A DNA stretch of 64,000 nucleotides from an uncultured Bacteroidota bacterium (GTDB taxonomy: Bacteria > Bacteroidota > Bacteroidia > Chitinophagales > Chitinophagaceae): the NCBI GenBank assembly GCA_903882805.1, contig CAIRYK010000066.1, positions 1 through 64,000 of the forward strand. Direction: 5' to 3'. Position numbers and translations under genes: made by a program. Within the stretch, counting starts at the first letter, position 1. Every line of letters starts with the position of its first letter. The notes beneath the pieces were generated by a model. It searched no databases and was not told the DNA's origin. It saw only the letters and a list, made by a program, of their open reading frames with translations. Shown here in pieces: positions 37,701-57,526 of the stretch.

Positions 37701-40700
37701 ATCAGCTGGCACTTCAATTATTACTTATTCTATGGGCGCCGGTTGTCAGGTTACACGCGTTGTAACTGTTTCACCGTCTCCAGTTGCCATAACGGGTACT
37801 ACAAGTATATGTATAGGCAATACCACAGCTTTGTTCGACGCCACACCCGGCGGCGCCTGGAGCAGTAGTAATACTGCTGTAGGTACTATAAGCGGTATAG
37901 GCGTCGTTGGCGGTGTTTCTGCCGGCACAACTGTTATTACCTATACAGTTGGCGGAATATGCTTTGTAACAACCACGGTAACGGTCAACTCCACGCCGAC
38001 ATCAATTACCGGTTCTACAAATGTGTGCGTAGGACAAACTGGATTGCTGGGTAATGGCGTACCGGGCGGTATTTGGACAAGTAGTAATACAGCTGTTGCT
38101 ACTATTGGTTCTACTACAGGTATACTCAACGGGGTTACTGTAGGCACTGCTACTATTACTTACTCGCTTGGGGCAGGATGCGTGCGCACCACCACTATCG
38201 CAGTCAATCCATCGCCCGGTGTTATTACCGGAAGTATGAGCGTTTGTGTTGGCTTTACCAGCGCTTTAAGCAATTCAGTATCTGGCGGTACCTGGACGAG
38301 TAGCGCCACTGGCGTTGCAACTGTTGGTTTGTCAACCGGTATAGTTACCGGTGTGTCTACAGGTACTGCTATTATAACGTACAGATTAGCGACAGGTTGT
38401 GAAACAACAGCGACAGTTACAGTTAATACCGCGCCAGGTCCTATTTTAGGAACAACTTCGTTGTGTGCAGGTACTTCTTTAACGCTTTCTAACTCTGTAA
38501 CCGGTGGGCTGTGGACCAGCAGCAATACCGCCATCGCAACCGTTGGTTCAACAACGGGTGTGGTAAATGGCGTTGCAGCAGGAACAGCTACCATTACTTA
38601 TTCATTGGGTATTGGTTGCGCAGTAACGGCGGTAATAACTGTAAATACCGCGCCAACTGCCATAGGCGGACCGAGTGCATTGTGCGTAGGGTCTACAATG
38701 ACGCTGACCAACGGTGTGCCCGGAGGCAGGTGGACAAGCAGCAACACTGCAATAGCTACAATTGGTTCTATTTCAGGTATTGTATCTGGCGTTGCGCTGG
38801 GTACGGCTGAAATTACCTACACACTTGCAGGCGGATGTACAGTTTCAACGACAATAACAGTTAGCCCAACACCCGGACCAATCACAGGTTCAGGTACATT
38901 GTGCGTTGGCTCGTCTACCCCATACGGCAACATTGTTCCTGGCGGCCTATGGTCATCTACAAGCGCTACAATTTCTATTGGTTCTATTTCTGGCATTGTT
39001 ACAGGCCTTTCTATTGGCACGGCAAGCATTACCTATTCATTAGGCTCAGGTTGCACAGCTTACCGCACTATTACGGTTACGCCCGGACCTGCCGCCATTG
39101 CAGGCGCGTCGAGCGTATGCGAAGGCGGTACTGCTACCTATACCGATGCAACTCCCGGAGGAGACTGGACAAGTAGTAATACGGCTGTAGCGACTATTGG
39201 TTCGCTCAGCGGCATTCTTACTGCGGTATCTGCCGGCACAACTGTTATTACTTATACTACAGGCGTAGGTTGTATGTCGGTAAAAATAGTTACCGTAAAC
39301 GCTACCCCTACTGCTATAACAGGTACTGCTATTTTGTGCTCCGGAACATCTACCACTTTGGCCGACGCTGTTAGCGGAGGTATATGGAGCAGCGGCAATA
39401 CGGCCGTTGCTACCGTAGGGTCGCTTACAGGCGTTGTTTTCGGCGTGTCGGCAGGCACAGCGGTAATAACGTATGCAACAGGAGCTGGTTGTTATGCTAC
39501 GCGTATCGTTACGGTTACGCCATCACCAGCGCCTATAGGCGGTATACCGGTAGCGGGTATTGGCACTACTACTACGCTCACCAACACAGTTGGCGGCGGC
39601 GTATGGACCAGCAGCAATACCGGCGTAGCTACCGTGGGCAGCTCAAGCGGCATTGTTACGGGTGTATCATTAGGAACAACAATTATTACTTACACGGTTG
39701 GTAGCTGCTTCACTACCACTACGGTTACCATAACCAATGCTCCGACACCTATTGGCGGACCTCGTGGTTTGTGCCTTGGTTCTTGCTATACGCTTACAGA
39801 TGGCGTTGGCGGCGGCGTATGGACCAGCAGTAATCCTGCCGTAGCAACTATTGGTTCGTCAACGGGCTTAGTGTGCGCCGTTTCTTTAGGTACATCTGTA
39901 ATCACGTATTCTGTAGGTCTTGGTTTGGGACTATCGGTTACAGCAACTGTTACCGTTAATCCTTCGCCATTACCACTTACAGGGCCAACAGAATTATGCG
40001 TAGGTAGTTCCATTGTATGCCCCCCTTCTACTCCTGGTGGCGTTTGGTCTTCAAGTACTGTACTTGTTGGGCCTATCACCCCTACAACCGGTGTTGTTAC
40101 TGGGGTATCGGCAGGTACTACTACTATTACTTATACGTTGTCGGGCGGTTGCTATGCATTACGCACGCTGACTGTTCACCCAACGCCAACTGCTATATCA
40201 GGTACGGCAAATGTTTGCCGCGGTCAAAGTACTACCTTGATTAATGGTTTAAGTGGAGGTTCGTGGATAAGCAGCAATACAGTAGTTGCAACAATTGGTT
40301 CGACATCAGGAATTGTAAACGGACTTGCAGCAGGCACTTCTACAATTACCTATAGCCTGGGCACAAGCTGTATTGCTACGCATGTTGTTACGGTTTATCC
40401 TTCGGCGCCTATAGCCGGTATTACCAATATATGCGTAGGCAACACTACTACGCTTACCAATGCAGTGCCGGGCGGCAACTGGCTCAGCGATATGCCAACA
40501 GTAGCCACCATCGGACTTACATCAGGGTTAACTTCTGGCGTCTCTGCAGGTACTGCCACTATATCCTACACTTTATCTACCGGCTGTAGAGTAACAACTA
40601 CAGTAACCGTAAATGGTTTGCCAGACCCAATAGCTGGTCCGGCGAGCGTGTGCGTGGGTAGCAGCATCACGTTTACTGATGTTACTCCCGGCGGTACCTG

Positions 40701-43700
40701 GAGTTATTCGGGCGCAGGCGTTGCCACTATTGGCTCAACCACTGGTATTTTAACAGGCCTTAGCGCCGGCCCTATTGTTATAGCGTACTCTATAGGTTCT
40801 GGGTGCAGCGTTACAATGGGCGCAACCATCAATCCTTTACCGTTACCAATAACAGGCGCTACCAATGGTTGCGAAGGATCGCTTACACGTCTTAGCGATA
40901 TTACTCCCGGCGGCCTATGGAGCAGCAGCGATATAGCCATCGCCGATATTGGCTCTATAACAGGCATTGTAAATGGTGTAGCAGCAGGTACATCTACAAT
41001 TACATATACTTTGGCTACGGGTTGTTTCGTAACCCGCGATATTGTTATCAACCCACTGCCTGCGGCAATAGTTGGTTCAACTCGTGTATGCGTTGGCTTG
41101 GCTACCGCCCTCAGCAACCCAACTCCGGGCGGTGAATGGCAAAGTAGCAATACACTGATTGCAACAATTGGCTCATCTACGGGTATGGTTACCGGTGTTT
41201 CTGCTGGTGTGGCAACGATATCTTATATTATGCCTACAAGCTGCTACATTACTACATCGGTAACTGTAGTGCCGTTGCCGGCGCCGGTATCAGGTCCGGC
41301 TAACGTATGCGTTGGTTCAAATATTACGCTGAGCGATGTTACACCAGGCGGTATATGGACATCTACTAACCCTACAATTGCAACCATAGGCTCTACTTCT
41401 GGTATCCTCACCGGCGCATCTTCGGGCACAGTGTTGGTATCATATACACTTGGTTCAGGTTGCTCTGCATTGGCTACTATAATTGTCAATCCAGTTTCGC
41501 CTATCAATGGCGCGTCTGCAGTTTGCGTCGGTCAGCGTATACTCCTGAGCGATACTACCGCCGGCGGCGTATGGACAAGCAGCAACCTTACCGTTGCCAC
41601 TGTAGTGCGTACCGGCGACACAATTGGCACAGTTGCCGGTCTTACAGCAGGTACAGCAATCATTAGCTATACCTTGCCTACCGGCTGCATAGCGTTGAAG
41701 TCTATTCGCGTGGTGGCTGCTCCTCCGGCAATCATTGGCTTATCGCAGGTGTGCGAGGGCGCTACAATTACACTGTCAGACCCAATATTTGGCGGCACAT
41801 GGACCAGCGATAATACAGCTGTTGCCACCGTGGGTATTTCTTCGGGTATTGTAACAGGCGTTAGCGCAGGCGTAGCTACTATCAGCTATAACTTGGGCGC
41901 TTGTCCAGCTACTAAGATTATTACAGTCAATCCACTACCGGCAGCAATAGCAGGTGGACCTAACGTTTGCGTAGGCGCGCCTGTTACCTTTACCAGCGCT
42001 ACACCCGGCGGCACATGGAGCAGTAGCTCTACCGGCATTGCCGTAGTGGGAGCGGGTACGGGCATTGTGACCGGCATTACAGCAGGCACAGCCACTATCA
42101 CTTATCGCATCGTTACCGGTTGCGTTACTACCGCGCCTATTACAGTGTTCCCGGCTCCGGCAAGAATTACCGGAAGTGCGAATATTTGTATTGGACTCTC
42201 TACTGCATTGGCAGACGCTACGCCGGGCGGCGCATGGAGCAGCAGCGATCCCGCTACTGTATGGATAGACGGTACTGGCGTTGCTTATGGCCTTGCTTTG
42301 GGCACAGTCACTATTAGTTATACAGTTGGTTCAGGTTGTTCAGCGCTGTTGCGCGTTACTGTAAGTGATCTTCCTCCAGCTATTACCGGCGCCACCAATG
42401 TGTGCGTTGGTCAGAGCGTTACATTTGCTGATGCTGCCCCCGGCGGCGCATGGACAAGCGGCGACTTTTCTGTGGCATCGGTAGGCACAGCTACCGGCAT
42501 TGTAACCGGTGTAGCGGCAGGCATAGCGCCAATAACTTATACTTTAGGTACCGGTTGCATTGCTGTAAAAGACATCATTGTAGACCCATTACCGGGTCCT
42601 ATTGTTGGCATACCGCAGGTTTGCGTTGGTCTCACAACTCCGCTTTATAGTTCTACTTTTGGCGGTGGCTGGAGCAGTAGCAATACTACTATTGCAACGG
42701 TAGATGCGAGTACCGGCGTAGTAACAGGCGTATCGGCCGGCACGGCAACCATTACCTATAGCGTAGGTTGTTATCAGACTATTACGGTTAGAGTGAATCC
42801 AATGCCGACTGCCATCACCGGCAACACCAATATTTGCCTTGGTTCTACATCTGCCCTCACTAATGGCGTTCCGGGCGGTATCTGGACAAGTTCAATACCT
42901 GGTTCTGCGCCCATTGGTTCTTCTTCAGGTGTGGTTACAGGCGTTGCAATTGGTACGGGCGCTATTGCTTATACATTGGGCGCAAGTTGCAGTGTATCTA
43001 CAACGGTTGCAGTATTGCCGTTGCCTACTGTTTATACTGTATATGGCACAGGTAGTTATTGCGAAGGCGGCAATGGTATCCATATCTACCTATCCGGTTC
43101 TTCTGTTGGGGTAAACTACCTGCTATACAATGGCGGCACTACCCCTACAGGCACTTTTGCAGGCACCGGTGCGCTACTCGATTTTGGGTTGCAAACTGTT
43201 GCCGGCGATTACCATGTGGTTGCAATAAGCTCTATAACGCTTTGCCGTACCAATATGGCAGGTATTGCTACCATAACCATTAACCCTGCTGTTCGTCCGG
43301 CGGTTACGATCACAAATCCCGGTAGCGATACTATTTGCGCAGGCGCATCTACTACCTACACGGCCAACCCAACTAACGGAGGCTCGGCGCCTGCTTATGT
43401 GTGGACGGTGAATGGCGTTACAGTAGGTACAGCCGGCGCTTATACTTTTATTCCTGCCGATGGCGACGTAGTGAAAGTGCTGCTTACTAGCAATGCACTA
43501 TGCGCAATACCGGACACAGCTACGCGTACAAAGAAAATAACTGTAAGCCCAATGGTAAATCCGGTATCCGGTATTGTATCGCATCCTGGCGACACGGTAT
43601 GTAAAGACATGGCTATTACGCTTACTGCGACCCCTACCTACGGCGGCTATACGCCATCGTTTATATGGCGCAAATTTGGGTTGAACGTGAGCGCAGGTCC

Positions 43701-44376
43701 TATCTATAGCTATATACCCAGCGATGGCGACCAGATTACCTGCTTTATGACCAGCAGCTATCCATGTTTGCTTACCGATACAGTAACAAGTCCGGTATTG
43801 CTGGTAAATGTTGTAGAGCCTACTATTCCGCATGTGATGATTGTGGCAAGTCCAAGTTATAATGTAGGCGTTGGCAAACCGGTAACCCTAACTGCCGAAG
43901 TTACAGACGCAGGGTTGCATCCCACTTATCAGTGGTTGGTAAATGGCGTACCGGTTGCGGGAGCTACAACGGCTACTTACACCAGCGTATTCCACAGCGC
44001 TTATCAGGATTCAGTAAGTGTTGATGTAACAAGCAGCGGCGTTTGCCAGATCACTGCGCATAACTGGATGTATATCAACGTGAGCGATGTAGCTGTAAAA
44101 ACTGTCGGTTCATTGGGCGGCGATATCAGCGTATTGCCTAATCCAAACAAAGGAACATTTACCATAAAGGGAACTATAGCAATCGCCAACGGTACGCTTG
44201 ATCTGGAAATTACCAATATGCTTGGTCAGGTGGTTCATCGTTCGGAGGTAACTGTAAGAAACGGAAAAGTTAATGAGCAAGTATCGTTGAGCAATTCAGT
44301 AGCCAGCGGTATGTATATCATCAATCTGCGATCAGCAACCGAGAGCAAAATATTCCATATGGTTATTGAGCAGTAG
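34720..44376 (+). CDS. Giant T9SS-exported protein: glycine-rich head and about 34 Ig-like repeats
   Basis: A 3218-residue exported protein. Signal peptide 1-23 (GWTGFSQ). Residues 24-287 form a glycine-rich domain like that of ALK/LTK-type proteins (GGGGGASDIRIGG, DRVVVAGGGGGAGG, GGGGSSYTSS). Residues 288-2767 hold about 34 Big_2-like repeats of about 73 residues, consensus xITGxxxVCVGxTTTLTDxTPGGxWSSSNTAVATIGSxTGIVTGVSAGTxxITYxxGxGC. A YCEGG-type repeat follows (about 2768-2860), then three Ig/PKD domains and a T9SS type A sorting domain (from about 3136, ISVLPNPNKGTF). Nearly every repeat has one N-terminal and one C-terminal Cys. Repeat 19 lacks the first and repeat 20 the second. The role is probably adhesion or surface structure. 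The C-terminus is paralogous to the gene at 1-1161. Confidence 0.93.
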   Translation: MNYKLSTLLLVLLLAIGWTGFSQTTTYNYTGSVQTYVVPGGLSSITVTAQGAKGGLNSTELSTLCSGTLPDRPGYGACVVCTLAVVSGQVLNIYVGGRGGDGTRVGCTASAGIGGYNGGANGAVGYGPYSGGGGGGASDIRIGGTAFSDRVVVAGGGGGAGGNYYYSTDYERGGDGGTTTGEDGYGGGSPHVSGGAYGGGPSSGGAPGSYSGWTTGTAGSFGLGGAAGSPSGGGGGGGGWYGGGGGCWGGGGGGSSYTSSSIATNVAHTRGCNSVGDGVVTITPNCSAGTIGGPLVICPGTTGTLTNGVSGGTWTSSNTVVATIGSTTGDIVGVSAGTSMITYFVTLPCGSVFSTAVLRVNPSPGPISGTTTMCVGLTTTLTDGGGGTWASSNTGVATVGSSTGIVTGVSAGTSVITYSVGFGMSCLAFTTVTVTPLPAPITGSLSVCVGLTTSLGDATPGGTWSSGSTGVATIGSASGIATGVSTGTSIITYTIGTGCIMTATLLVNPLPAPITGRLSMCVGLTTSLSDVTPGGTWSSGNTAIATVGTSSGIVTGVSAGTALITYTIPTGCIITAMVTVNPLPLPITGTLNVCVGLTTTLGDPTPGGTWSSSNLGVATIGSLSGIATGVTAGTAIITYTIGSTCIITATLLVNPLPTVITGLSSVCVAATITLTDGTPGGVWSSSNTAVATVGSLSGIVTGVSSGLATITYRLPTGCITTTDITVYPIPAPITGITSVCEGLTRTLADASPFGSWSSSDATIASVDATTGVVTGVLAGTVTITYAYGTGCGVTTTFTVNPSPNPITGVTAICLGYTSLLTDAGGGTWSSSNTAVAPIGSTSGIVSGLTLGFATITYTLPTGCITTVLVTVNPLPDPITGTTRLCVGTTTTLRDAVPGGDWSSSNPAVAPVITTLGLVTGLSAGTAIITYTLSTGCYVYTTVTVIPTPGAITGTASLCVGGTTSLSNTVGGGIWISSRTAVATVGSLSGIVTGVSAGTSIITYSMGAGCQVTRVVTVSPSPVAITGTTSICIGNTTALFDATPGGAWSSSNTAVGTISGIGVVGGVSAGTTVITYTVGGICFVTTTVTVNSTPTSITGSTNVCVGQTGLLGNGVPGGIWTSSNTAVATIGSTTGILNGVTVGTATITYSLGAGCVRTTTIAVNPSPGVITGSMSVCVGFTSALSNSVSGGTWTSSATGVATVGLSTGIVTGVSTGTAIITYRLATGCETTATVTVNTAPGPILGTTSLCAGTSLTLSNSVTGGLWTSSNTAIATVGSTTGVVNGVAAGTATITYSLGIGCAVTAVITVNTAPTAIGGPSALCVGSTMTLTNGVPGGRWTSSNTAIATIGSISGIVSGVALGTAEITYTLAGGCTVSTTITVSPTPGPITGSGTLCVGSSTPYGNIVPGGLWSSTSATISIGSISGIVTGLSIGTASITYSLGSGCTAYRTITVTPGPAAIAGASSVCEGGTATYTDATPGGDWTSSNTAVATIGSLSGILTAVSAGTTVITYTTGVGCMSVKIVTVNATPTAITGTAILCSGTSTTLADAVSGGIWSSGNTAVATVGSLTGVVFGVSAGTAVITYATGAGCYATRIVTVTPSPAPIGGIPVAGIGTTTTLTNTVGGGVWTSSNTGVATVGSSSGIVTGVSLGTTIITYTVGSCFTTTTVTITNAPTPIGGPRGLCLGSCYTLTDGVGGGVWTSSNPAVATIGSSTGLVCAVSLGTSVITYSVGLGLGLSVTATVTVNPSPLPLTGPTELCVGSSIVCPPSTPGGVWSSSTVLVGPITPTTGVVTGVSAGTTTITYTLSGGCYALRTLTVHPTPTAISGTANVCRGQSTTLINGLSGGSWISSNTVVATIGSTSGIVNGLAAGTSTITYSLGTSCIATHVVTVYPSAPIAGITNICVGNTTTLTNAVPGGNWLSDMPTVATIGLTSGLTSGVSAGTATISYTLSTGCRVTTTVTVNGLPDPIAGPASVCVGSSITFTDVTPGGTWSYSGAGVATIGSTTGILTGLSAGPIVIAYSIGSGCSVTMGATINPLPLPITGATNGCEGSLTRLSDITPGGLWSSSDIAIADIGSITGIVNGVAAGTSTITYTLATGCFVTRDIVINPLPAAIVGSTRVCVGLATALSNPTPGGEWQSSNTLIATIGSSTGMVTGVSAGVATISYIMPTSCYITTSVTVVPLPAPVSGPANVCVGSNITLSDVTPGGIWTSTNPTIATIGSTSGILTGASSGTVLVSYTLGSGCSALATIIVNPVSPINGASAVCVGQRILLSDTTAGGVWTSSNLTVATVVRTGDTIGTVAGLTAGTAIISYTLPTGCIALKSIRVVAAPPAIIGLSQVCEGATITLSDPIFGGTWTSDNTAVATVGISSGIVTGVSAGVATISYNLGACPATKIITVNPLPAAIAGGPNVCVGAPVTFTSATPGGTWSSSSTGIAVVGAGTGIVTGITAGTATITYRIVTGCVTTAPITVFPAPARITGSANICIGLSTALADATPGGAWSSSDPATVWIDGTGVAYGLALGTVTISYTVGSGCSALLRVTVSDLPPAITGATNVCVGQSVTFADAAPGGAWTSGDFSVASVGTATGIVTGVAAGIAPITYTLGTGCIAVKDIIVDPLPGPIVGIPQVCVGLTTPLYSSTFGGGWSSSNTTIATVDASTGVVTGVSAGTATITYSVGCYQTITVRVNPMPTAITGNTNICLGSTSALTNGVPGGIWTSSIPGSAPIGSSSGVVTGVAIGTGAIAYTLGASCSVSTTVAVLPLPTVYTVYGTGSYCEGGNGIHIYLSGSSVGVNYLLYNGGTTPTGTFAGTGALLDFGLQTVAGDYHVVAISSITLCRTNMAGIATITINPAVRPAVTITNPGSDTICAGASTTYTANPTNGGSAPAYVWTVNGVTVGTAGAYTFIPADGDVVKVLLTSNALCAIPDTATRTKKITVSPMVNPVSGIVSHPGDTVCKDMAITLTATPTYGGYTPSFIWRKFGLNVSAGPIYSYIPSDGDQITCFMTSSYPCLLTDTVTSPVLLVNVVEPTIPHVMIVASPSYNVGVGKPVTLTAEVTDAGLHPTYQWLVNGVPVAGATTATYTSVFHSAYQDSVSVDVTSSGVCQITAHNWMYINVSDVAVKTVGSLGGDISVLPNPNKGTFTIKGTIAIANGTLDLEITNMLGQVVHRSEVTVRNGKVNEQVSLSNSVASGMYIINLRSATESKIFHMVIEQ
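35581..43020 (+). repeat. Array of about 34 coding repeats (about 219 bp each)
   Basis: In-frame tandem repeats encoding Ig-like domains. Copies diverge throughout in nucleotide sequence, with no adjacent near-identical units seen, so the array is old rather than recently expanded. Repeats 19 (39529-39744) and 20 (39745-39969) are the only ones missing one of the two conserved cysteines; repeats 20 and 21 carry additional cysteines. Confidence 0.85.
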
Positions 44377-48035: not shown

Positions 48036-51000
48036 TTATTGCTGAACAGTCAGTTTGCCATTATAATTTACATTGTCTGATTTTATTGCAATCAGATAAA
48101 CGCCATTTGCAAGGTTGCCGAGGCTGATTTGTGTTTGTCCGCTTGTTGCATCAATGTTGATTTCGGTAGTATAAACCACTCTGCCAGCCATATCTGAAAC
48201 TACAACTTTAGCAGCGCCGGTAACTTTATCCTGCCATTTGATGTTCAATGAGCCTGAAGTTGGGTTAGGGAACACGGTAATGTCATTTGCAGTAATTGCG
48301 CCTCCGTTTGGATTTGCATGACGGAACTCAAGGTCTGTAACTGTTATTGTCACGAAAGTTCCGCAACCGCCTATTACATAGTATATGTTTACTGTGCCTA
48401 CTGCCTGACCTGTTACTTCGCCTGTTACTGAATCAACTGTAGCAATTGAGTTATCACCGCTCATCCATACACCGCCCGATACTGCATTGGTAAGGGTAAT
48501 GATACCAGATACTGCAACAGTAGTAGGACCGCCTATAGCTGTAGGAGCCGCATTAACGTTAACTGTTTTGTATACGCCGCAAGCGCCTATTGCATAATAG
48601 ATATTTACTACGCCAACTGATACGCCAGTAACCACGCCTGTAGATGAACCTACAGATGCAATAGCCGTGTTTCCGCTGCTCCAGCGACCGCCTGAAGTAG
48701 CATCGGTAAGTGTAATTGTTGAGCCTACGCAAACATTTGTTGGGCCGCTTATTGCCGCTGGAGTTGGCGTTACGGTAACTGTTTTGTAAACGCCGCAGCT
48801 ACCTATGGTATAATAGATATTTGCAACACCTGCAGATACGCCGGTAACAACGCCTGTACCGCTGCCTACAGTTGCTACGCCTGTTGTAGTGCTCAGCCAT
48901 ATACCGCCGCGTGTAGAGTCGGTAAGCGTGATAGATGAACCAACGCATACGCTGCTTGGGCCAGCAATTGGAGCCGGAGCCGGAGTGATAGTAAGCGTTT
49001 TGAATGTACCGCATGTACCTATGCTGTAGTAGATATTAACTACGCCGGCTGCAAGAGCAGTAACCACGCCTGTTGAAGAACCTACTGTTGCAATGCCCGT
49101 GTTTCCACTGCTCCAGCGACCGCCAGATGTACCATTGGTAAGGGTGATGGTAGATCCAAGGCAAGTGCTGCCACTACCAGATATTGCAGATGGCGTGGCA
49201 TTTACAGTAACAGTTTTGTAAACGCCGCAACCGCCGCGAACATAGTAGATGTTAGTTACACCTGGCGCAACGCCGGTCAATATGCCTGTTGATGAACCAA
49301 TTGTTGCAACGCCTGTGTTGCTGCTGATCCATGAACCGCCATAAGTAGAATCGGTAAGCGTAATGGTAGAACCTACGCAAACGCTGCTGCTACCGCCTAT
49401 AGGAAGTGGTGGATTGTTGACAGTGAAGGTGAAGTATGCCGCGCTGCCGCCTACAGTATAGGTAATGATTACTGTGCCGCCTGTGATTCCGGTAACAACG
49501 CCTGATGTAATGCCAATTGTAGCAATACCTGTGTTGCTGCTGCTCCATGTTCCGCCAGAGGTTGCATCGCTCAGAGTAGTTGTGTTGCCTACACATACAT
49601 TAGATGAGCCAGTAATAGGCGCTATGGTAGAGCCAGAAGTAACAGTAAGTGTAGATGAAACTCCGCAACCTGTAGAAAGTAAATAATAGATAGTAACGGT
49701 GCCTACAGATACGCCGGTAGCAACGCCTGTTGTAGCATTGATAGTAGCTATACCAGCGTTAGAGCTGCTCCATGTACCGCCTGCTGTAGCATCAGTCTTG
49801 GTGATTGTGCTACCAACAGTAACAGTGGTAGGACCGCTTATTGCAGATGGATTAGGATTAACTGTAAACGACATTGTGGTGGTAACAGTACCTACTGTAT
49901 AGCTGATAGTAACTACGCCTGCAGCGATACCAGTAACTACACCGGTAGTAGCGCCTACTGTTGCAAAAGCTGGGTTGCTACTGCTCCAAGCGCCGCCGGT
50001 GGTTGCATTAGCAAGCGCTCTTGTACCGCCTACGCAAACGTTCGGAGTACCTGTGATTGGCGTGATACCGCCTGCAGTTACAGTAATTACTCTGTATGCG
50101 CCGCAGCCTGTAGAAAGAACATAATAAATACCAACTGTGCCTGCAGATACGCCGGTTACAACGCCTGATGTAAGGCCTACTGTAGCAACAGCAGGGTTGC
50201 CGCTCGTCCATGTACCGCCTGATGTAGCATCTGTAAGTGTAATAGTAGAACCAGTAGCAACGGTAGTAGGACCGCCGATAGCAGCAGGTAAAGGATTAAC
50301 AGTAAAAGAACGAACAACTGTTGTAGTACCAACTGTGTATGAAATGTTGACAACACCTGTAGCAATACCTGTTACAACGCCTGTTGTAGAACCTACCGTA
50401 GCAATGGCAGTATTTCCACTTGACCAACGACCGCCCGGAGTACTATCTGTCAGCGTGCGGGTAGAACCTACGCAAACGCTTGCAGTACCCATAATTGGCG
50501 CAACATAAGTGCCGGTTACTGTAACAGTTTTTACAGCTCCGCAACCTGTGCCGAGCATGTAGTATATATTTACAACGCCTGGTAAAACTCCTGTAACAAT
50601 ACCAGTAGTAACACCTACAGTAGCGACAGATGGGTTAGAACTACTCCATGTACCGCCGCTTGTAGCATCGGTAAGCGTAATTGAAGACCCGGCAGCTACG
50701 CTTGAAGCGCCTGAAATAGCAGCAGGCGATGGGCTAACTGTAACAACAGTTGTTACAAAGCTAGTGCCTATTCTGTAGGTAATAACAGAAGTGCCTGCAG
50801 CAACGCCTGTTACAACACCTGTTGATGAACCTACAGTAGCAACGCCTGTGTTGCTGCTGGTCCATGAACCGCCGCCAACAGAGTCGGTAAGGGTAGAAGT
50901 TGTGCCTACGCAAAGTGATGTGCTACCTCCAATTGGACCAGGGGTTGCTCCGCCAGATACTGTAATTACATAAGATACGCGACAACCGGTAGATAATGTA

Positions 51001-51878
51001 TAATAGATGGTGCAAACCCCAGGGGCAACGCCGGTAACAAAACCAGTGCTAATACCTACAGTGGCTACTGCCGTGTTACTGCTGCTCCATGTACCGCCGC
51101 TTGTTGCGTCTGTAAGCGTCATTGAAGAACCGGCTGCAACAGATGTTGGACCAGTAATAGCAGTTGGATTTGGGTAAACAGTAAAAACAGTAGTTACAAT
51201 TCTTGTGCTTACATTATAGGTAATAAGGCTTGTGCCAGCCGCAACACCGGTAACTACGCCTGATGTTAACCCTACAGTAGCAACGCCTGTGTTGCTGCTG
51301 CTCCAAGTTCCGCCGGTTACACTGTCGCCAAGCGCTGATGTTTGACCAACGCAAGCGTGTGTGATTCCCGTAATCGGGCTGATTGTGCCTGTAACATCAA
51401 CCGTGTATGAGCGGCCACATCCGGTAGGGAGTACATAATATACATTACAAACGCCAGCGCCAACGCCGGTAACTACACCGGTTGTAGCATTTATTGTTAG
51501 TACAGCAGGGCAGCTGCTGGTCCATGTTCCGCCAGGTGTTGCATCGCTAAGCGGTGTGGTGCCCCCCACAGAAACTGTAGAACTGCCGGTAATAACTGCA
51601 GGTAAAGCATTTACTGTAAATGATTTCGTAACTGTAGTTGTACCTACTGTATAAGAAATTACTGTAACCCCCGGAGCCCTGCCATACACAGTACCTGAGG
51701 TATAGCCAATGCTTGCTATAGTGGTATCTCGTACAGCCCACCAACCTCCTGTGGTAGAGTCGGTGACGGTTACGGATGATCCAACGCAAACGCTGGACGG
51801 CCCCCCTATAGGACCTTGGGCGAACGACGCCATCGAGAGGATCAATCCTAAAAATGTTAGGATAAATAATTTTCTCAT
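48036..51878 (-). CDS. T9SS-exported protein with 16 Ig-like repeats in alternating-cysteine register
   Basis: A 1280-residue protein. Signal peptide 1-21 (SMASFAQ). Residues 22-1182 are 16 Big_2-like repeats of about 73 residues, in the same family as the 3218-residue protein. The N-terminal Cys (VCVG position) is present in repeats 1, 3, 5, 7, 9, 11, 12, 13, 14 and 15. The C-terminal Cys (TGC position) is present in repeats 2, 4, 6, 8, 10, 12, 13, 14, 15 and 16. Repeats 1-11 thus alternate as two-domain units, with spacers such as GGATPG and GTYVA after even copies. From 1183 an EFRHANPNGG linker leads to a T9SS type A sorting domain (DITVFPNPTSGSLNIKW ... YLIAIKSDNVNYNGKLTVQQ). Probably a surface fibre or adhesin. 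Confidence 0.93.
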   Translation of the reverse strand: MRKLFILTFLGLILSMASFAQGPIGGPSSVCVGSSVTVTDSTTGGWWAVRDTTIASIGYTSGTVYGRAPGVTVISYTVGTTTVTKSFTVNALPAVITGSSTVSVGGTTPLSDATPGGTWTSSCPAVLTINATTGVVTGVGAGVCNVYYVLPTGCGRSYTVDVTGTISPITGITHACVGQTSALGDSVTGGTWSSSNTGVATVGLTSGVVTGVAAGTSLITYNVSTRIVTTVFTVYPNPTAITGPTSVAAGSSMTLTDATSGGTWSSSNTAVATVGISTGFVTGVAPGVCTIYYTLSTGCRVSYVITVSGGATPGPIGGSTSLCVGTTSTLTDSVGGGSWTSSNTGVATVGSSTGVVTGVAAGTSVITYRIGTSFVTTVVTVSPSPAAISGASSVAAGSSITLTDATSGGTWSSSNPSVATVGVTTGIVTGVLPGVVNIYYMLGTGCGAVKTVTVTGTYVAPIMGTASVCVGSTRTLTDSTPGGRWSSGNTAIATVGSTTGVVTGIATGVVNISYTVGTTTVVRSFTVNPLPAAIGGPTTVATGSTITLTDATSGGTWTSGNPAVATVGLTSGVVTGVSAGTVGIYYVLSTGCGAYRVITVTAGGITPITGTPNVCVGGTRALANATTGGAWSSSNPAFATVGATTGVVTGIAAGVVTISYTVGTVTTTMSFTVNPNPSAISGPTTVTVGSTITKTDATAGGTWSSSNAGIATINATTGVATGVSVGTVTIYYLLSTGCGVSSTLTVTSGSTIAPITGSSNVCVGNTTTLSDATSGGTWSSSNTGIATIGITSGVVTGITGGTVIITYTVGGSAAYFTFTVNNPPLPIGGSSSVCVGSTITLTDSTYGGSWISSNTGVATIGSSTGILTGVAPGVTNIYYVRGGCGVYKTVTVNATPSAISGSGSTCLGSTITLTNGTSGGRWSSGNTGIATVGSSTGVVTALAAGVVNIYYSIGTCGTFKTLTITPAPAPIAGPSSVCVGSSITLTDSTRGGIWLSTTTGVATVGSGTGVVTGVSAGVANIYYTIGSCGVYKTVTVTPTPAAISGPTNVCVGSTITLTDATSGGRWSSGNTAIASVGSSTGVVTGVSVGVVNIYYAIGACGVYKTVNVNAAPTAIGGPTTVAVSGIITLTNAVSGGVWMSGDNSIATVDSVTGEVTGQAVGTVNIYYVIGGCGTFVTITVTDLEFRHANPNGGAITANDITVFPNPTSGSLNIKWQDKVTGAAKVVVSDMAGRVVYTTEINIDATSGQTQISLGNLANGVYLIAIKSDNVNYNGKLTVQQ
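48333..51815 (-). repeat. Array of 16 coding repeats, first 11 in a two-domain periodicity
   Basis: Unit length about 218 bp; the first ten repeats have a higher-order unit of about 440 bp, seen as alternation of Cys positions and of the end of each repeat (TVGTTTVTKSFTV versus LSTGCGAYRVITV). The last copies (12-15) resemble each other more closely and each keep both cysteines. Confidence 0.85.
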
Positions 51879-52105: not shown

Positions 52106-55100
52106 TTAGTGTACAATTTCGAGTTTTTCCACATGGAATAGTTCGCTCGATACAATATTGATTTGATACCAGCCTATTGGTACAGTTGATATATCGATGC
52201 TTTCGTTTTCATGTATTTTCTTGTTTAGTATTTGTTTGCCAGATATGTCGGTCAGTATAACAGTTATTAGTTGATTGCTTTTTTGTTCCGTTTCAATCGT
52301 TAGCTTGTTTGTAGCAGGATTAGGGAAAATGCGAATTCTTCCATAAGGTTCCATTGTCGATAGTCCGGTAGGCATCAGTGGCCGAATAATACGGGAAGTT
52401 GTATATTGCTTAAAGCCAAGCATATTATTTCCGGGTTTCGATTCTGAAATTACAGATACCGGATGTGCTGTTGTCTTGTAGGCATATTCTTCCGGACATA
52501 CAATATATGCGCCATATCCCAAATTACGGAACGAATAGTCACCGCCGGCATTAGTGTAGGTATAGGTAAGTATTTTATTGTTTGCATCCTTCAGGTAAAC
52601 AAGCATATCAGCTACCGGAATATCCCCACTTGTACCTTTGCCTGCGCCCGATGATATATGTCCGCCCATAAAGCCAGATCCTGGTGGTACAATACCGTAA
52701 ATCATGTTAATGTCTAATATTTCAGTAGCGCCATTGTGAATTACTGTGGTGGCAGAATCCCAATGCGTATTTGAGTATCCATAGGTAGGTATGTAGCCCG
52801 ATGAGCCGGGTTGGTTACCGTAAAGTAGCTTGGCTTTTACAAGATAATTCCCATTTGGTGTGTTATCAAACTCATAATATGCTCTGCCCCCGTCTTTGCA
52901 AGAAATAGTAGAATCAATTGCAATGAGCGAGCTGTCTAACGGATCATATTGTATCAGCCATACTTTTAAATCTGTTGAATCGGGTGTAGGACCGTTAAAC
53001 GTGATATGTCCGGCAACTCTGTTGCCTTGCAATACCTGGGTAGCAATACCAGCGCAACCTGTTCCTGGATCGGTGCCAGCAACACTATAAGTGGTTGTTG
53101 CCGATGGGTAAATAATAGTGCTTGAGCAACTGGTGCATACAACACCTGTAGACGGCGACCAATTGTAAGACGATGCTCCGGATGCTGACACTGTATAATA
53201 TCCACCGCAATCGGCTAATGACGATGTTGCGGTTACAGTAGGTAATCCTACTACTGTAACTGTTGTGTAGGCATTGCAACCATAACCTAACGAATAAGTA
53301 ATGGTCACTGTGCCTGCTGCAACCCCCGTAACAACTCCGCTGGTACCGCCAATAGTAGATATTGAGGCTATTCGGGCATTGCTACTATACCAAAGTCCGC
53401 CAACTGCAGTATCTAATAGTGTTTTTAGTGCATTTACGCATATATACCCAGATCCAGTAATAACTCCAGGTGCCAGCACATTCATAGTCATAGTATCTCT
53501 AACTGTGTCTGGCATGGCGCATGCTGCATTGCTAACTAGTGTCACTTCAATTGTTTCCTGATCGGTAGGGTAGTCGGCAAAGGTTGTTCCGCTAGATACT
53601 GCGACGCCATTTTTCTTCCAGGTGTACCTCGGCGCGCTACCACCGTTAACTGGTATTGCTGTATAGGTTACATATTGTCCGGAACAAACCGTATCGCCGG
53701 GAAGGGTACTAATGCTTACAGCTGGAGTAACAAAAGGGTCTATGATTATTGCTACAGAATCTGCCATCATGCTCTCGCAACCAGTAACTACATTCCTTGC
53801 TTTTACTTTATAATATCCGGAATCGGTATGTGTGCCAAAATGTATTGGCGTACCCGTGCTGCCTGGTATTGCCGAACCAATTGCAGTTGAACCTTTATAC
53901 AGTAGGTATTCTATTCCTGCGTTCGAATTATCTAAATCAATGGGTAGTCCAGTACCGCCGCTACAGTAGCGCCCACCGCCCGTAATACTATATACGCTTG
54001 GTAAGCTGTTTACATTTATTATTGCGCTTCCTGCCATTGACGTGATACAGCCAGTTGTAGTATTGCTACCAACAACGGTATAGGAGCCTGTGCTCGTAAA
54101 TGTTCCAAAAGCAAGGGCAACTCCGGTTCCGGTGCGGGGTATAGAAACAGGTATACCATCGCGATACAATTGGTAGTTGATGCCTAAGGTAGAGTAGGAT
54201 AGTCCTACCACTCTACCAGTTCCGCCGCTGCAATAATTACCGCCGCCGGTAACTGTCCAGGCAATTGGCAGAGGGTTAATATTTACTATTGCAGATCTGT
54301 TGCAACCTGTACCAATTGAGTACGTTATGGATGCAGTGCCTGCGCTAACGCCGCTGAGTATACCGGTTGATGACCCTATTGTAGCAACAGCAGGCGACCC
54401 TGAGCTCCAAACGCCACCGGATATCGTATTGGTTAGTGTTGAAGTCGCCCCTTGACAAATTGAAGTCGTGCCTGTAATAATTCCCGGACCGGGAGTAATT
54501 GATATTACCGTACTACCAAGCATAGTTGCATTGCACCCGGTAGTGGTATTTGTTGCTTCAACAGTTGCCAAGCCCGGAGTAATAAAGGCGCCTAATGTAA
54601 GTGAACTACCTGTGCCAGGCGTAGGAGAGCCGTAGTTAACGCCGTCAATTTTTACCTGATAGGAAATGCCTGTATTTGAACTGCTTAAGAAAACAGGGGC
54701 TCCAGCTCCGCCAAAGCAATATGCTCCGCCGCCCGACACGCTAAATACCGTAGGTAGGGCATTAGTGAAAATTGTTGCAGAGCCATACATTGTCGCTGCG
54801 CATCCGGATGTGCGATTTGTTGCAATTACTGTATATACCCCGGGGGTATACGCTCCAAAATCTAAAAGAGACCCAATTCCAGCAAATGTCCCGATTGTTG
54901 TTGAACCATTATATAATGTGTAATCAATACCGGTATCGGAATTTGATAAAAGAATGTTAGCCCCCGGCGCGCCTATACAATAGCCTCCACCGCCGGGTGA
55001 AGAAACAGTGTCGATATCCGGTAACGGCATACGGGTAATTGTTGCAGAACCAGTCATTAACGTACTGCAACCTGTTGCTGGTATATTTGCTACAATAGTA

Positions 55101-57526
55101 TATGTGCCCGGGATTGTTCGAGAGCCAAAATCAATTGCCGCACCTGTTCCTGAAACCCAGAAACTACTTGGCGTTGCTCCTCTGTACAATTTGTATTGTT
55201 CGCCTACTGTAGTGCCGTCAAGGCCTATTCTCATGCCAGATCCGCCCGCGCAGTAGGAACCGCCGCCTGTGGTCCTGAAAATGGTGGGTATTGGATTGAC
55301 AAGTACTGTTTTAGTAACGAAACAACCCGAAGTTAATATATAAGATAAATTTGTTGTTCCTGCGGCAATGCCGGTTGCTTCACCTGTTGCTGGGTCTATA
55401 CTGGCAACCAAAGGATTTTCGCTAACCCATAGTCCACCTGAAATAGAGTTTGAGTAATTAACTGGGCTTGCAACACAAATTCTACTTAATCCGGAAATTG
55501 GACTAGGCATAGCATTAACGTTTATTGTAGCGATTACGTAACAACTACTTCCTATTGCGTAAGTAATTGTCGTAGAACCTATTGTAAGGCCTGCAACAAT
55601 GCCGGTAGTATAACCTACAGAGGCAGTAGCTGGGGAGCTGCTTGTCCATGTTCCACCACTTGTTGCATCAGTTAGTGTGGCGCTTGCTCCAATGCAAAGT
55701 GAAGAAGTTCCTGTTATGGGTGCGGGCGTTACGTTGACTGTTACAGAGGTTGTAGTGATGCATCCCGAGGGGAGTATATAACTAAGTAATGAAACGCCGG
55801 GCGCCAACCCTGTACATACACCGGATGAACTACCAATAACAGCAACGCCAGTATTGCTGCTGCTCCATACTCCGCCAGTCACAGATGGTACAAATGTTGT
55901 AGGTGTTCCGGTACAAACGCCTGTTCCGCCTGAAATTGAAGCAACAGGGTTGCAGGCGATAGCAATAATTGAATAACAGCCTGTTGGCAATGAGTAGGTT
56001 ATTATTACTACACCTGCTGATATTGCTGTTAATATCCCGGTTCCACCTACAGTTGCTACCGAAATATCGCTGCTACTCCAGTTTCCGCCAAGAGAAGTAT
56101 TGGATAAAGTAATATTACTGCCGACACATACGGAAGTAGCGCCAGTTATTGCAGCCGGTATTGGATTTACAGTTAAGGTAATTTGGCTGAAACAGCTATT
56201 AGGCAAAGTATAGGAAATACTAGCTGTACCGACGGACATGCCTGCGACCAACCCGGATGTAGAACCAATAGTAAGCGCTGCGATTGATGGGCTTGACGTT
56301 GTCCAGTATCCGCCTGTGGTCGTGTCTGTCAATAGGGTGGAATTGCCAATACACACGCCAGCAGCGCCAGATATCGCAGCAGGCGTAAGATTTACTGTTA
56401 CTGCTTTGGTAGTAATACAACCAGTGCCCAACGTATAGGATACAATACCTATACCGCTCGAGACACCCGTCACTAAACCAGCAGTTGAACCAGAAACTGT
56501 TATTGTTGAGCTTGGTGTATACCATACGCCTCCACCAATACTTGGGTTGATAGAAATACTACTGCCCATACATAAATGGGATGGTCCGGATAAAACAGCT
56601 AGCGGACTGACAGTAACGGTTCTTGCAGCCCTGCAGCCAGTAGACAGCGTATAATATATATTGGCCGTACCAGCTGAGATGCCAGTAACAATCCCGGTAA
56701 GAAGTCCTACAGTTCCTATAGCCGGATTTGCGCTCGACCATGATCCACCGGGTGTAGTAGTAGTAAGCGCCGTATAATTACCTACACACATACCAGCATA
56801 GCCAGTAATAGGTGCAGGTGTTGGGTTTACAGAAACAGTTATCGTACTGCTGCAACCTGTTGGTAGCATATAAGTTAAGGCCAAAACACCAGCAGAGATT
56901 CCTGTGGCTATTCCTGTAGAAATGCCAACAGTGGCTATAGCTAACGAACTACTTGACCAAGCGCCGCCAGAGTTTATGTTGGCATATGGCGATGTAGAAC
57001 CTATACACATTGATCCTGGGCCGGTTATCGGTGCAGATGGGTTAACAGTAACGAGAGCGGTAGCTCTACATCCAGTACTTAGCCGATAAATGAGTGTAGC
57101 TGTATCGGCTGTGATACCACGCGCTACTCCAGTAACAGAGTCGATGGTAATCACAAATGTATTGAGGCTGTACCACCTTCCTAAGGCTGTACTATCTGTA
57201 AATGCTGCATTTGTGCCTTCGCAAATTGTTGCGGGCCCGAGAATTGGGTTAGGTAAAGGGTTTACTGTAACTACGCGGGTAGCGATTCCTATTCCATCTG
57301 TATAAGTAATTGTGGTGGTACCTGCCATAACGCCGGTTACAACACCCGATGCCGACCCAATTATGCCCACCGCAGTATTGCTACTAATCCAATATCCGCC
57401 AATAGTTGTGTCAGACAATGTAGATGTAGCGCCAACACATACACTGGCATTCCCAGTTATCGGACCTATTGCCTTAGCTGCGAATGAGTATAGAATCAGG
57501 AGCAATATAATGCTGTACGACTTCAT
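52106..57526 (-). CDS. T9SS-exported mosaic protein: Ig-like repeats and YCxGG repeats
   Basis: An 1806-residue protein. Signal peptide 1-19 (LYSFAAKA). Ten A-type Ig repeats (VCVG...TGC) come first; the first lacks the C-terminal Cys. Then follow three B-type repeats (about 88 residues, GGGxYCxGGxG ... LYxGxT ... TTGCxxxMxGSA), one A-type, two B-type, an Ig/PKD domain (DTVCSGQYVTYTAIPVNGGSAPRYTWKKNG), a last A-type, a CxxC-containing domain (VVCTSCSSTI), and two prealbumin-like domains (VAGHITFNGPTPDSTDLKVWL; GSFVADMLVYLKDANN-like, ending NMLGFKQYT). The end is a T9SS sorting domain (RIRIFPNPATNKLTIET ... SSELFHVEKLEIVH). Likely a large surface protein, perhaps carrying a binding module near the C-terminus. 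Confidence 0.9.
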   Translation of the reverse strand: MKSYSIILLLILYSFAAKAIGPITGNASVCVGATSTLSDTTIGGYWISSNTAVGIIGSASGVVTGVMAGTTTITYTDGIGIATRVVTVNPLPNPILGPATICEGTNAAFTDSTALGRWYSLNTFVITIDSVTGVARGITADTATLIYRLSTGCRATALVTVNPSAPITGPGSMCIGSTSPYANINSGGAWSSSSLAIATVGISTGIATGISAGVLALTYMLPTGCSSTITVSVNPTPAPITGYAGMCVGNYTALTTTTPGGSWSSANPAIGTVGLLTGIVTGISAGTANIYYTLSTGCRAARTVTVSPLAVLSGPSHLCMGSSISINPSIGGGVWYTPSSTITVSGSTAGLVTGVSSGIGIVSYTLGTGCITTKAVTVNLTPAAISGAAGVCIGNSTLLTDTTTGGYWTTSSPSIAALTIGSTSGLVAGMSVGTASISYTLPNSCFSQITLTVNPIPAAITGATSVCVGSNITLSNTSLGGNWSSSDISVATVGGTGILTAISAGVVIITYSLPTGCYSIIAIACNPVASISGGTGVCTGTPTTFVPSVTGGVWSSSNTGVAVIGSSSGVCTGLAPGVSLLSYILPSGCITTTSVTVNVTPAPITGTSSLCIGASATLTDATSGGTWTSSSPATASVGYTTGIVAGLTIGSTTITYAIGSSCYVIATINVNAMPSPISGLSRICVASPVNYSNSISGGLWVSENPLVASIDPATGEATGIAAGTTNLSYILTSGCFVTKTVLVNPIPTIFRTTGGGSYCAGGSGMRIGLDGTTVGEQYKLYRGATPSSFWVSGTGAAIDFGSRTIPGTYTIVANIPATGCSTLMTGSATITRMPLPDIDTVSSPGGGGYCIGAPGANILLSNSDTGIDYTLYNGSTTIGTFAGIGSLLDFGAYTPGVYTVIATNRTSGCAATMYGSATIFTNALPTVFSVSGGGAYCFGGAGAPVFLSSSNTGISYQVKIDGVNYGSPTPGTGSSLTLGAFITPGLATVEATNTTTGCNATMLGSTVISITPGPGIITGTTSICQGATSTLTNTISGGVWSSGSPAVATIGSSTGILSGVSAGTASITYSIGTGCNRSAIVNINPLPIAWTVTGGGNYCSGGTGRVVGLSYSTLGINYQLYRDGIPVSIPRTGTGVALAFGTFTSTGSYTVVGSNTTTGCITSMAGSAIINVNSLPSVYSITGGGRYCSGGTGLPIDLDNSNAGIEYLLYKGSTAIGSAIPGSTGTPIHFGTHTDSGYYKVKARNVVTGCESMMADSVAIIIDPFVTPAVSISTLPGDTVCSGQYVTYTAIPVNGGSAPRYTWKKNGVAVSSGTTFADYPTDQETIEVTLVSNAACAMPDTVRDTMTMNVLAPGVITGSGYICVNALKTLLDTAVGGLWYSSNARIASISTIGGTSGVVTGVAAGTVTITYSLGYGCNAYTTVTVVGLPTVTATSSLADCGGYYTVSASGASSYNWSPSTGVVCTSCSSTIIYPSATTTYSVAGTDPGTGCAGIATQVLQGNRVAGHITFNGPTPDSTDLKVWLIQYDPLDSSLIAIDSTISCKDGGRAYYEFDNTPNGNYLVKAKLLYGNQPGSSGYIPTYGYSNTHWDSATTVIHNGATEILDINMIYGIVPPGSGFMGGHISSGAGKGTSGDIPVADMLVYLKDANNKILTYTYTNAGGDYSFRNLGYGAYIVCPEEYAYKTTAHPVSVISESKPGNNMLGFKQYTTSRIIRPLMPTGLSTMEPYGRIRIFPNPATNKLTIETEQKSNQLITVILTDISGKQILNKKIHENESIDISTVPIGWYQINIVSSELFHVEKLEIVH

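Follow-up and report, generated by a model that had tools for sequence, protein, structure and literature searches.

On the reverse strand of a 64,000-nucleotide stretch of DNA from an uncultured bacterium of the Chitinophagaceae (GenBank assembly GCA_903882805.1, contig CAIRYK010000066.1, positions 1–64,000; hereafter, the window) lies the gene for a 1280-residue surface protein built from 16 copies of a roughly 73-residue, Big_2-like immunoglobulin (Ig) repeat. The Big_2 profile (PF02368) matched the protein in eight stretches with 168 bits against a cut-off of 22.8, and one modelled repeat superposed on the Big_2 fold of 7r3t (Big_2-CBM56; Z 12.2, root-mean-square deviation [rmsd] 1.3, 72 residues). 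A profile for Ig domain 16 of NUP210 (PF25354) scored higher still on this bacterial protein (188 bits), which may mislead automatic annotation. Sequence searches of the PDB with the protein and three alignments gave weak or partial matches only, the best being human NUP210 (E 1.2e-06), and no relative turned up when the whole protein was used in a first scan of named genomes. The array sits between a probable signal peptide and a type A sorting domain of the type IX secretion system (T9SS; Table 1). T9SS substrates of this type are anchored by their C-terminal end. The genome (4.94 Mb in 95 contigs, 98 percent complete) encodes a T9SS translocon (SprA_N, 523.6 bits) and at least 150 sorting domains and, judging from these features, the type IX system should carry the protein to the cell surface.

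The protein contains 23 cysteines. We refer to a cysteine at model position 9 of the repeat (motif SVCVG) as a donor and to one at model position 60, in the FG hairpin, as an acceptor; a junction is termed stapled when repeat i carries the donor and repeat i+1 the acceptor, and open when neither is present. An initial annotation, made from the letters of the sequence, had placed donors in repeats 1, 3, 5, 7, 9, and 11–15 and acceptors in repeats 2, 4, 6, 8, 10, and 12–16, such that all ten donors face an acceptor in the next repeat, no acceptor is orphaned, and none of repeats 1–11 possesses both cysteines. Our recount of the codons gave the identical picture, and the lack of any doubly marked repeat among the first eleven excludes within-repeat pairing there by sequence. 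The same annotation envisaged a stiff rod. This description suits repeats 11–16, which are continuously stapled, and has to be given up for repeats 1–10, which form five stapled pairs with open joints between them. As these repeats are stapled only pairwise and linkers of another type occur at the five open joints (see below), a jointed chain is to be expected in this part of the protein.

Table 1 Features of the 1280-residue protein and related genes in the window.
Feature	Position	Strand	Remarks
1280-residue surface protein	48036–51878	−	16 Big_2-like Ig repeats and T9SS type A sorting domain; open reading frame, Pfam
Probable signal peptide, residues 1–21	51816–51878	−	Visual reading of the translated sequence
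T9SS type A C-terminal sorting domain	48048–48275	−	Por_Secre_tail 46.4 bits (cut-off 27); TIGR04183 34.9 bits (cut-off 23)
Predicted staple, repeats 1 to 2	51417–51788	−	Donor codon 51786–51788, acceptor codon 51417–51419
Predicted staple, repeats 3 to 4	50982–51353	−	Donor codon 51351–51353, acceptor codon 50982–50984
Predicted staple, repeats 5 to 6	50541–50912	−	Donor codon 50910–50912, acceptor codon 50541–50543
Predicted staple, repeats 7 to 8	50103–50474	−	Donor codon 50472–50474, acceptor codon 50103–50105
Predicted staple, repeats 9 to 10	49665–50036	−	Donor codon 50034–50036, acceptor codon 49665–49667; within AlphaFold2 model of repeats 9–13
Predicted continuous stapled rod, repeats 11–16	48363–49595	−	From cysteine codons
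Rod donor codons	49593–49595, 49377–49379, 49161–49163, 48945–48947, 48729–48731	−	
Rod acceptor codons	49227–49229, 49011–49013, 48795–48797, 48579–48581, 48363–48365	−	
Open joint, repeats 2–3	51369–51392	−	Linker VTGTISPITG; AlphaFold2 block pLDDT 73
Open joint, repeats 4–5	50928–50957	−	Linker VSGGATPGPIGG; AlphaFold2 block pLDDT 68
Open joint, repeats 6–7	50490–50516	−	Linker VTGTYVAPIMG; AlphaFold2 block pLDDT 66
Open joint, repeats 8–9	50052–50078	−	Linker VTAGGITPITG; AlphaFold2 block pLDDT 72
Open joint, repeats 10–11	49611–49640	−	Linker VTSGSTIAPITG; AlphaFold2 block pLDDT 61
Extra cysteine pair of repeat 2 (positions 29, 50)	51447–51512	−	Codons 51510–51512 and 51447–51449; probable within-domain pair
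Lone extra cysteine of repeat 4 (position 50)	51012–51014	−	Unexplained
3218-residue array (O16)	34720–44376	+	34 scored repeats; every junction stapled but one, open between repeats 19 and 20
1806-residue T9SS protein (O52)	52106–57526	−	12 scored repeats; first repeat, just after the signal peptide, lacks the acceptor
DsbD-like thiol:disulfide interchange protein	21831–23963	+	

We scored both positions in the window and in fetched loci, whose 147 open reading frames (ORFs) with repeats were reduced to 103 non-redundant ones comprising 2048 repeats. Fourteen of the 103 stem from loci taken one per genome (five of these genomes lying outside the genus), and the others from the genome itself and its genus mates; loci were selected for their resemblance to part of the window protein, so the survey probably contains too few arrays lacking cysteines. 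Cysteine occupied position 9 in 1906 of 2041 repeats and position 60 in 1826 of 2027. Across 1834 neighbouring pairs in which both positions could be read, donor and following acceptor were both present in 1728 and both absent in 100, leaving two pairs with the donor only and four with the acceptor only. That is, repeat i has Cys9 if, and only if, repeat i+1 has Cys60 in 1828 of 1834 cases. The initial annotation had stated that many donors without an acceptor in the next domain would refute the bond; such donors number two in the genus set and none among the 152 and 828 pairs of two partly overlapping sets from other genera described below, so that this check did not refute it.

The default guess from a single repeat would be that the two cysteines pair inside it, as in ordinary Ig domains, and that the alternation is noise; after all, 1761 of 2023 survey repeats have both. 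However, among the remainder 128 had the donor only, 132 the acceptor only, and just two neither, against 8.6 joint absences expected by chance—an anti-association that, together with the absence of doubly marked repeats from the first eleven of the window protein and with the coupling data below, leaves within-repeat pairing practically no credence.

The dependence is specific to the next repeat. In 120 contiguous chains of the survey set, donor/acceptor mismatches at offsets −3 to +3 numbered 77, 224, 87, 257, 7, 204, and 53, corresponding to 7/1891 at +1 as compared with 257/2011 at 0, 87/1891 at −1, and 204/1771 at +2. When acceptors were shuffled inside chains (500 shuffles), the +1 mismatches rose to a mean of 153 (minimum 132), and rotating them gave a mean of 154 (minimum 92). 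The cysteine pattern exceeds chance.

A pattern of this kind could also arise if two-domain units were duplicated and the cysteines hitchhiked along, with no bond between them. Alternating arrays do resemble expanded two-domain units, and 88 of the 100 open junctions have another open junction as nearest neighbour. Linkage, however, predicts the reverse order of association from that observed, since donor(i) and acceptor(i+1) lie about 124 model positions apart and acceptor(i) and donor(i+1) only about 22. Moreover, with the 14 strongly alternating chains removed, mismatches amounted to 4/1659 at offset +1 vs 68/1765 at 0 and 64/1659 at −1, with 20 open junctions, in 19 chains, left. By the same token, we rejected acceptor(i)–donor(i+1) as a competing rule: its association (phi 0.64; 82 joint absences in 1855; z 8.7) derives largely from the alternating arrays, in whose absence it shows the 64 mismatches just given, compared with 4 for donor(i)–acceptor(i+1). 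Hitchhiking would further leave the tail cysteines at array ends (see below) unexplained, and we consider it highly improbable.

Direct couplings point to the same partners. Mean-field direct-coupling analysis of 1855 two-domain sequences, with linker-crossing pairs and gappy columns left out, ranked Cys9 of domain i with Cys60 of domain i+1 first of 4985 inter-domain pairs (z 28.9, the top within-domain pair reaching 19.1), whereas the same-repeat Cys9–Cys60 coupling was nil (z about −1). Within domains, couplings traced an Ig sandwich: 5–14 and 3–17 between strands A and B, 6–64 between A′ and G, and 53–63 between F and G. The latter two would align position 9 with the end of strand G and position 60 with the beginning of that strand, setting the two cysteines of one repeat about seven strand residues apart—a further point against their pairing. 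From this coupling map, position 9 probably lies at the C-terminal pole of its domain and position 60 at the N-terminal pole, so that the two would come opposite each other only where one domain adjoins the next. Among the 20 best inter-domain pairs, four (12–61, 69–58, 69–60, and 71–56; z 3.4–3.9) are compatible with the same interface; the remaining ones are mostly same-column pairs or compatible with no interface.

If the bond runs from i to i+1, an acceptor is useless in the first repeat of an array and a donor in the last. At array starts—ORFs with fewer than 75 residues before the first repeat, with signal peptides judged by eye—the acceptor was absent from 20 of 21 first repeats; the remaining ORF has a cysteine just upstream ('AQCG'). 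At the other end, where a last repeat with a donor precedes the sorting domain, a tail cysteine followed in 16 of 16 cases (in 11 of them three residues beyond strand G), as opposed to 1 of 16 where the last repeat is donor-less. In a looser test wherever arrays meet other sequence, accepting any cysteine within about 100 residues and hence weak, as cysteines are common there, 82 of 87 starts fitted (81 with both cysteines, 1 with neither; misfits 2 and 3) and so did 56 of 63 ends (53 and 3; misfits 2 and 5).

The end rule also bears on whether the bonds might instead join parallel copies of the protein shifted by one domain, in a filament-like arrangement. GhpA, a structurally similar Ig-rod protein, is described as a heptamer (PMC13319060), and a lone Cys50 recurs in donor-only repeats (see below). 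Nevertheless, donor and acceptor flank a single covalent junction, open joints have a linker type of their own, and the donor of the last repeat is matched by a tail cysteine of the same chain, mostly at the fixed spacing given above. Inter-chain disulfides thus appear very unlikely.

We then turned to other genera, where a profile search of the phylum gave matches in 65 of 296 genomes. A first set of 40 fetched regions and 29 search loci, scored with the genus profile, yielded 134 pairs with both cysteines, none with the donor only, ten with the acceptor only, and eight with neither (n = 152). Seven of these eight belong to one protein, ORF E27 on locus L166, in which eight doubly marked repeats are followed by one acceptor-only repeat and then by seven with neither, exactly as the rule demands. 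All ten acceptor-only pairs come from protein L172, with identical repeats and a misaligned donor: its cysteine falls just outside the model alignment ('EICLYDD'), and its pairs were kept in the counts. A second Ig type ('ICAGQ'), a query from which matched in 119 of 395 genomes, was scored with its own profile and gave 790 pairs with both, 0 with donor only, 19 with acceptor only, and 19 with neither (n = 828). As 35 of 104 ORFs are common to the two sets, we also counted the other 69 alone (587 both, 0 donor only, 9 acceptor only, 2 neither; n = 598). Ten of the 19 acceptor-only pairs are again those of L172, and inspection by eye of the other nine showed a cysteine lying a few residues beyond the scored window in five (F3 twice, F29 twice, and F14). 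The 19 open junctions lie in seven proteins: F30 (ten), F67 (three), F45 (two), and F16, F28, F36, and F40 (one each). F67 lacks cysteines at both sites and is therefore uninformative; the array of F30 (locus L192), from a different family of the class, alternates. By sequence, then, the rule is found again in other genera and extends to a second Ig type.

Stapled and open junctions also differ in their linkers. In the window protein, all ten stapled junctions have a span of 9 and the five open ones of 9, 11, 10, 10, and 11, the latter being richer in glycine, serine, and threonine. In the survey, linkers contained proline in 1570 of 1728 stapled but 53 of 100 open junctions, and spans averaged 9.01 and 9.89, respectively, with overlapping distributions (span 9 in 1141 of 1728 stapled and 17 of 100 open junctions; span 11 in 155 and 45). 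An AlphaFold2 model of repeats 9–13 had a predicted local distance difference test score (pLDDT) of 96.8 and a predicted template modelling score (pTM) of 0.68, its lowest block (81) coinciding with the open joint between repeats 10 and 11. When all 16 repeats were modelled (pLDDT 84.8), the minimum block was 61–73 at the five open joints compared with 80–89 at the ten stapled ones, with no overlap.

Four long arrays of the same genome (O13, O16, O17, and O22; 31 to 35 scored repeats) possess one open joint each and, in four of four, exactly 15 repeats follow it before the array ends. This may mean that a hinge is kept at a constant distance from the surface-proximal end, or may simply reflect shared ancestry.

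Not all cysteines obey this scheme. The initial annotation had left the extra cysteines of repeats 2 and 4 unexplained, and for repeat 4 this still holds. For repeat 2, a probable answer emerged: Cys29 always co-occurs with Cys50 (3/3 domains, one being this repeat). Likewise, Cys13 co-occurs with Cys43 (8/8) and Cys15 with Cys41 (2/2), and 13–43 is also a within-domain coupling (z 10.2). These three pairs look like within-domain disulfides, and the recovery of such rare same-repeat pairs means that the co-occurrence method detects ordinary pairs as well. Repeats with Cys13 and Cys43 occur in O11, O16, O17, O22, O46, and O163; in O16, O17, and O22 they lie inside or beside the repeats flanking the single open joint. 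Cys50 itself ('GTCTITY') is found in 90 survey repeats, 60 of them donor-only. We considered it as a substitute acceptor, but the preceding repeat is donor-less too in 59 of 85 scorable cases, leaving Cys50 without a partner. Its coupling with position 32 suggests a buried site.

The disulfide from domain i to domain i+1 that the initial annotation had proposed is, in our view, very probable: co-occurrence, direct coupling, the end rule, and recurrence outside the genus all favour it, the bond itself being a prediction. From these data we infer bond formation, its geometry, and the resulting mechanics as follows. At a stapled junction, Cys9 at the end of strand A′ of domain i would lie near its C-terminal pole, and Cys60 in the FG hairpin of domain i+1 at the N-terminal pole across the same interface, so that the Cys9–Cys60 disulfide would form beside a short linker, usually with a proline. 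An open junction would have neither cysteine; its linker would, on average, be longer and contain less proline and more glycine, serine, and threonine. Donor and acceptor would be gained or lost jointly. In the window protein, repeats 1–10 would then constitute five stapled pairs with hinges between, a jointed tether for an N-terminal binding partner, and repeats 11–16 a covalently locked six-domain rod adjoining the sorting domain, i.e., at the cell surface. Taken as a whole, we hold this explanation to be highly likely.

Oxidation of the cysteines would presumably take place in the periplasm. The genome provides one DsbA-like thioredoxin-fold match. A DsbD-like thiol:disulfide interchange protein is encoded in the window (Table 1). 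Searches of the genome (98 percent complete) with Pfam models found neither VKOR nor DsbB, which would fit cysteine pairs that bind metal or remain reduced. Yet there are just two cysteines per interface, the protein is of the T9SS-exported type, the DsbA-like match is present, and disulfides between Bacteroidota envelope proteins have been reported (PMC12635249), all of which makes metal binding or a reduced state extremely unlikely.

The missing VKOR and DsbB matches are one of several points that weigh against the stapled-junction explanation. Six mismatched pairs persist in the genus set. The clustering of open junctions noted above, with their distribution over 30 ORFs and 11 clusters (60 percent identity) and with 16 label changes on a rough tree of 506 junctions (mean 92 for shuffled labels), indicates that open junctions are partly inherited by descent, and independent events therefore number about ten to twenty rather than 100; paired losses thus stand at about ten to twenty events vs roughly five for the six single-sided cases, the latter counted by eye. 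Acceptor(i)–donor(i+1) comes second among the inter-domain couplings (z 8.7), a rank that we attribute to the alternating arrays. Under the looser end test, 12 of 150 array ends misfit. Before the sorting domain, O161 has a tail cysteine without a donor, and in O135 the tail cysteine comes 59 residues on, inside a further Ig-like stretch. The lone Cys50 of the 60 donor-only repeats has no partner under the staple scheme. In other genera, both cysteines are present in the majority of repeats, which leaves the test with few open junctions, and four acceptor-only cases of the second set remain (F19, F22, F40, and F107; by eye; about 4 of 828). Finally, the pTM of the 16-repeat model is only 0.35, and its pLDDT dips could be explained by linker sequence alone, confidence not being equal to distance.

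The two genes adjoining that of the 1280-residue protein encode proteins of 1806 (Table 1) and 849 residues, both with the same kind of repeat and a sorting domain. Ig arrays are abundant in this genome, with 185 matches to a three-repeat query and open frames of up to 6379 residues. All 24 genus mates searched had at least 87 matches each to this query; of 15 genomes from the order's other families, five had any, and none more than three. The S-adenosylmethionine synthetase encoded in the window is closest (93 to 91 percent) to those of uncultured Bacteroidetes, Taibaiella, and metagenome-assembled genomes of the Chitinophagaceae, Flavipsychrobacter scoring slightly lower.

To our knowledge, it is not settled how the giant Ig arrays of Bacteroidota stay extended, the known bacterial answers being Ca2+ in linkers or cross-links within domains. 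Animal Ig proteins such as those of the sialoadhesin family can have a single disulfide between two particular neighbouring domains; here, by contrast, a rule would run through arrays of tens of repeats in which some joints are open and the ends are capped. Region II of the Marinomonas primoryensis ice adhesin MpAFP, an Ig extender rigidified by Ca2+ (PMC4083281), and SiiE, in which Ca2+ sites are reported to raise rigidity (PMC5466336), resemble the window protein in being giant bacterial Ig arrays stiffened at the inter-domain interface. They use Ca2+ where we predict a covalent bond, and the accessible parts of both reports describe no on/off pattern along the chain. Acidic residues that could bind Ca2+ (aspartate or glutamate), scored in linkers only, were absent from all 15 linkers in the window protein; in the survey, 146 of 1728 linkers at stapled junctions and 3 of 100 at open ones contained them. 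In Gram-positive bacteria, the Ig domains of a Mobiluncus mulieris adhesin are cross-linked by isopeptide, ester, thioester, and disulfide bonds (PMC10619420). This giant adhesin likewise combines tandem Ig domains with covalent strengthening; according to the accessible part of its description, however, each bond lies within a domain (the disulfide between strands of the same sheet) and the linker between domains is described as flexible, while here the bond would lie between domains.

Within the phylum, the nearest recognised matches in a structural search with the AlphaFold2 model were chains of GhpA, the grappling hook protein of Aureispira (PDB 9flp, 9flu, 9flv, 9flw, 9flx, and 9g8b), also a giant Ig array of a Bacteroidota member. 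Chain 9flx aligned (VIA-align) with Z 8.7 and rmsd 10.0 over 268 residues, and the five GhpA chains among the matches listed (Z 7.9–8.7, rmsd 9.8–13.3) did no better than other multi-domain rods. At about residues 1200–1600, GhpA has donor- and acceptor-like cysteines in successive domains, as here, its domains resembling the second, ICAGQ-type repeats. Among the papers listed in searches of open-licence PubMed Central, a scope that leaves out most subscription journals and the original description of GhpA, we found no description of the i to i+1 disulfide rule; stiffening of interfaces by Ca2+ and covalent stiffening within domains are known.

We moderately favour the broader view that the giant, type IX-secreted Ig fibres of Bacteroidota share a stiffness code legible in their sequence, in which a cysteine pair (usually with a short, proline-containing linker) would denote a locked junction and its absence (usually with a longer, Gly/Ser/Thr-rich linker) a hinge, ends would be capped by dropping the odd cysteine or adding a tail cysteine, and all-locked, single-hinge, and alternating forms would have arisen repeatedly, involving two or more Ig types. 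If the staple rule is true, the mechanics of these proteins—locked rod, jointed chain, and the sites of hinges—would be readable from cysteines alone in thousands of repeats, and the natural on/off joints would be ready controls for single-molecule and cryo-electron microscopy work. Constructs cut at repeat boundaries would carry unpaired end cysteines, and repeats with two cysteines ought not to be read as containing one internal disulfide each.

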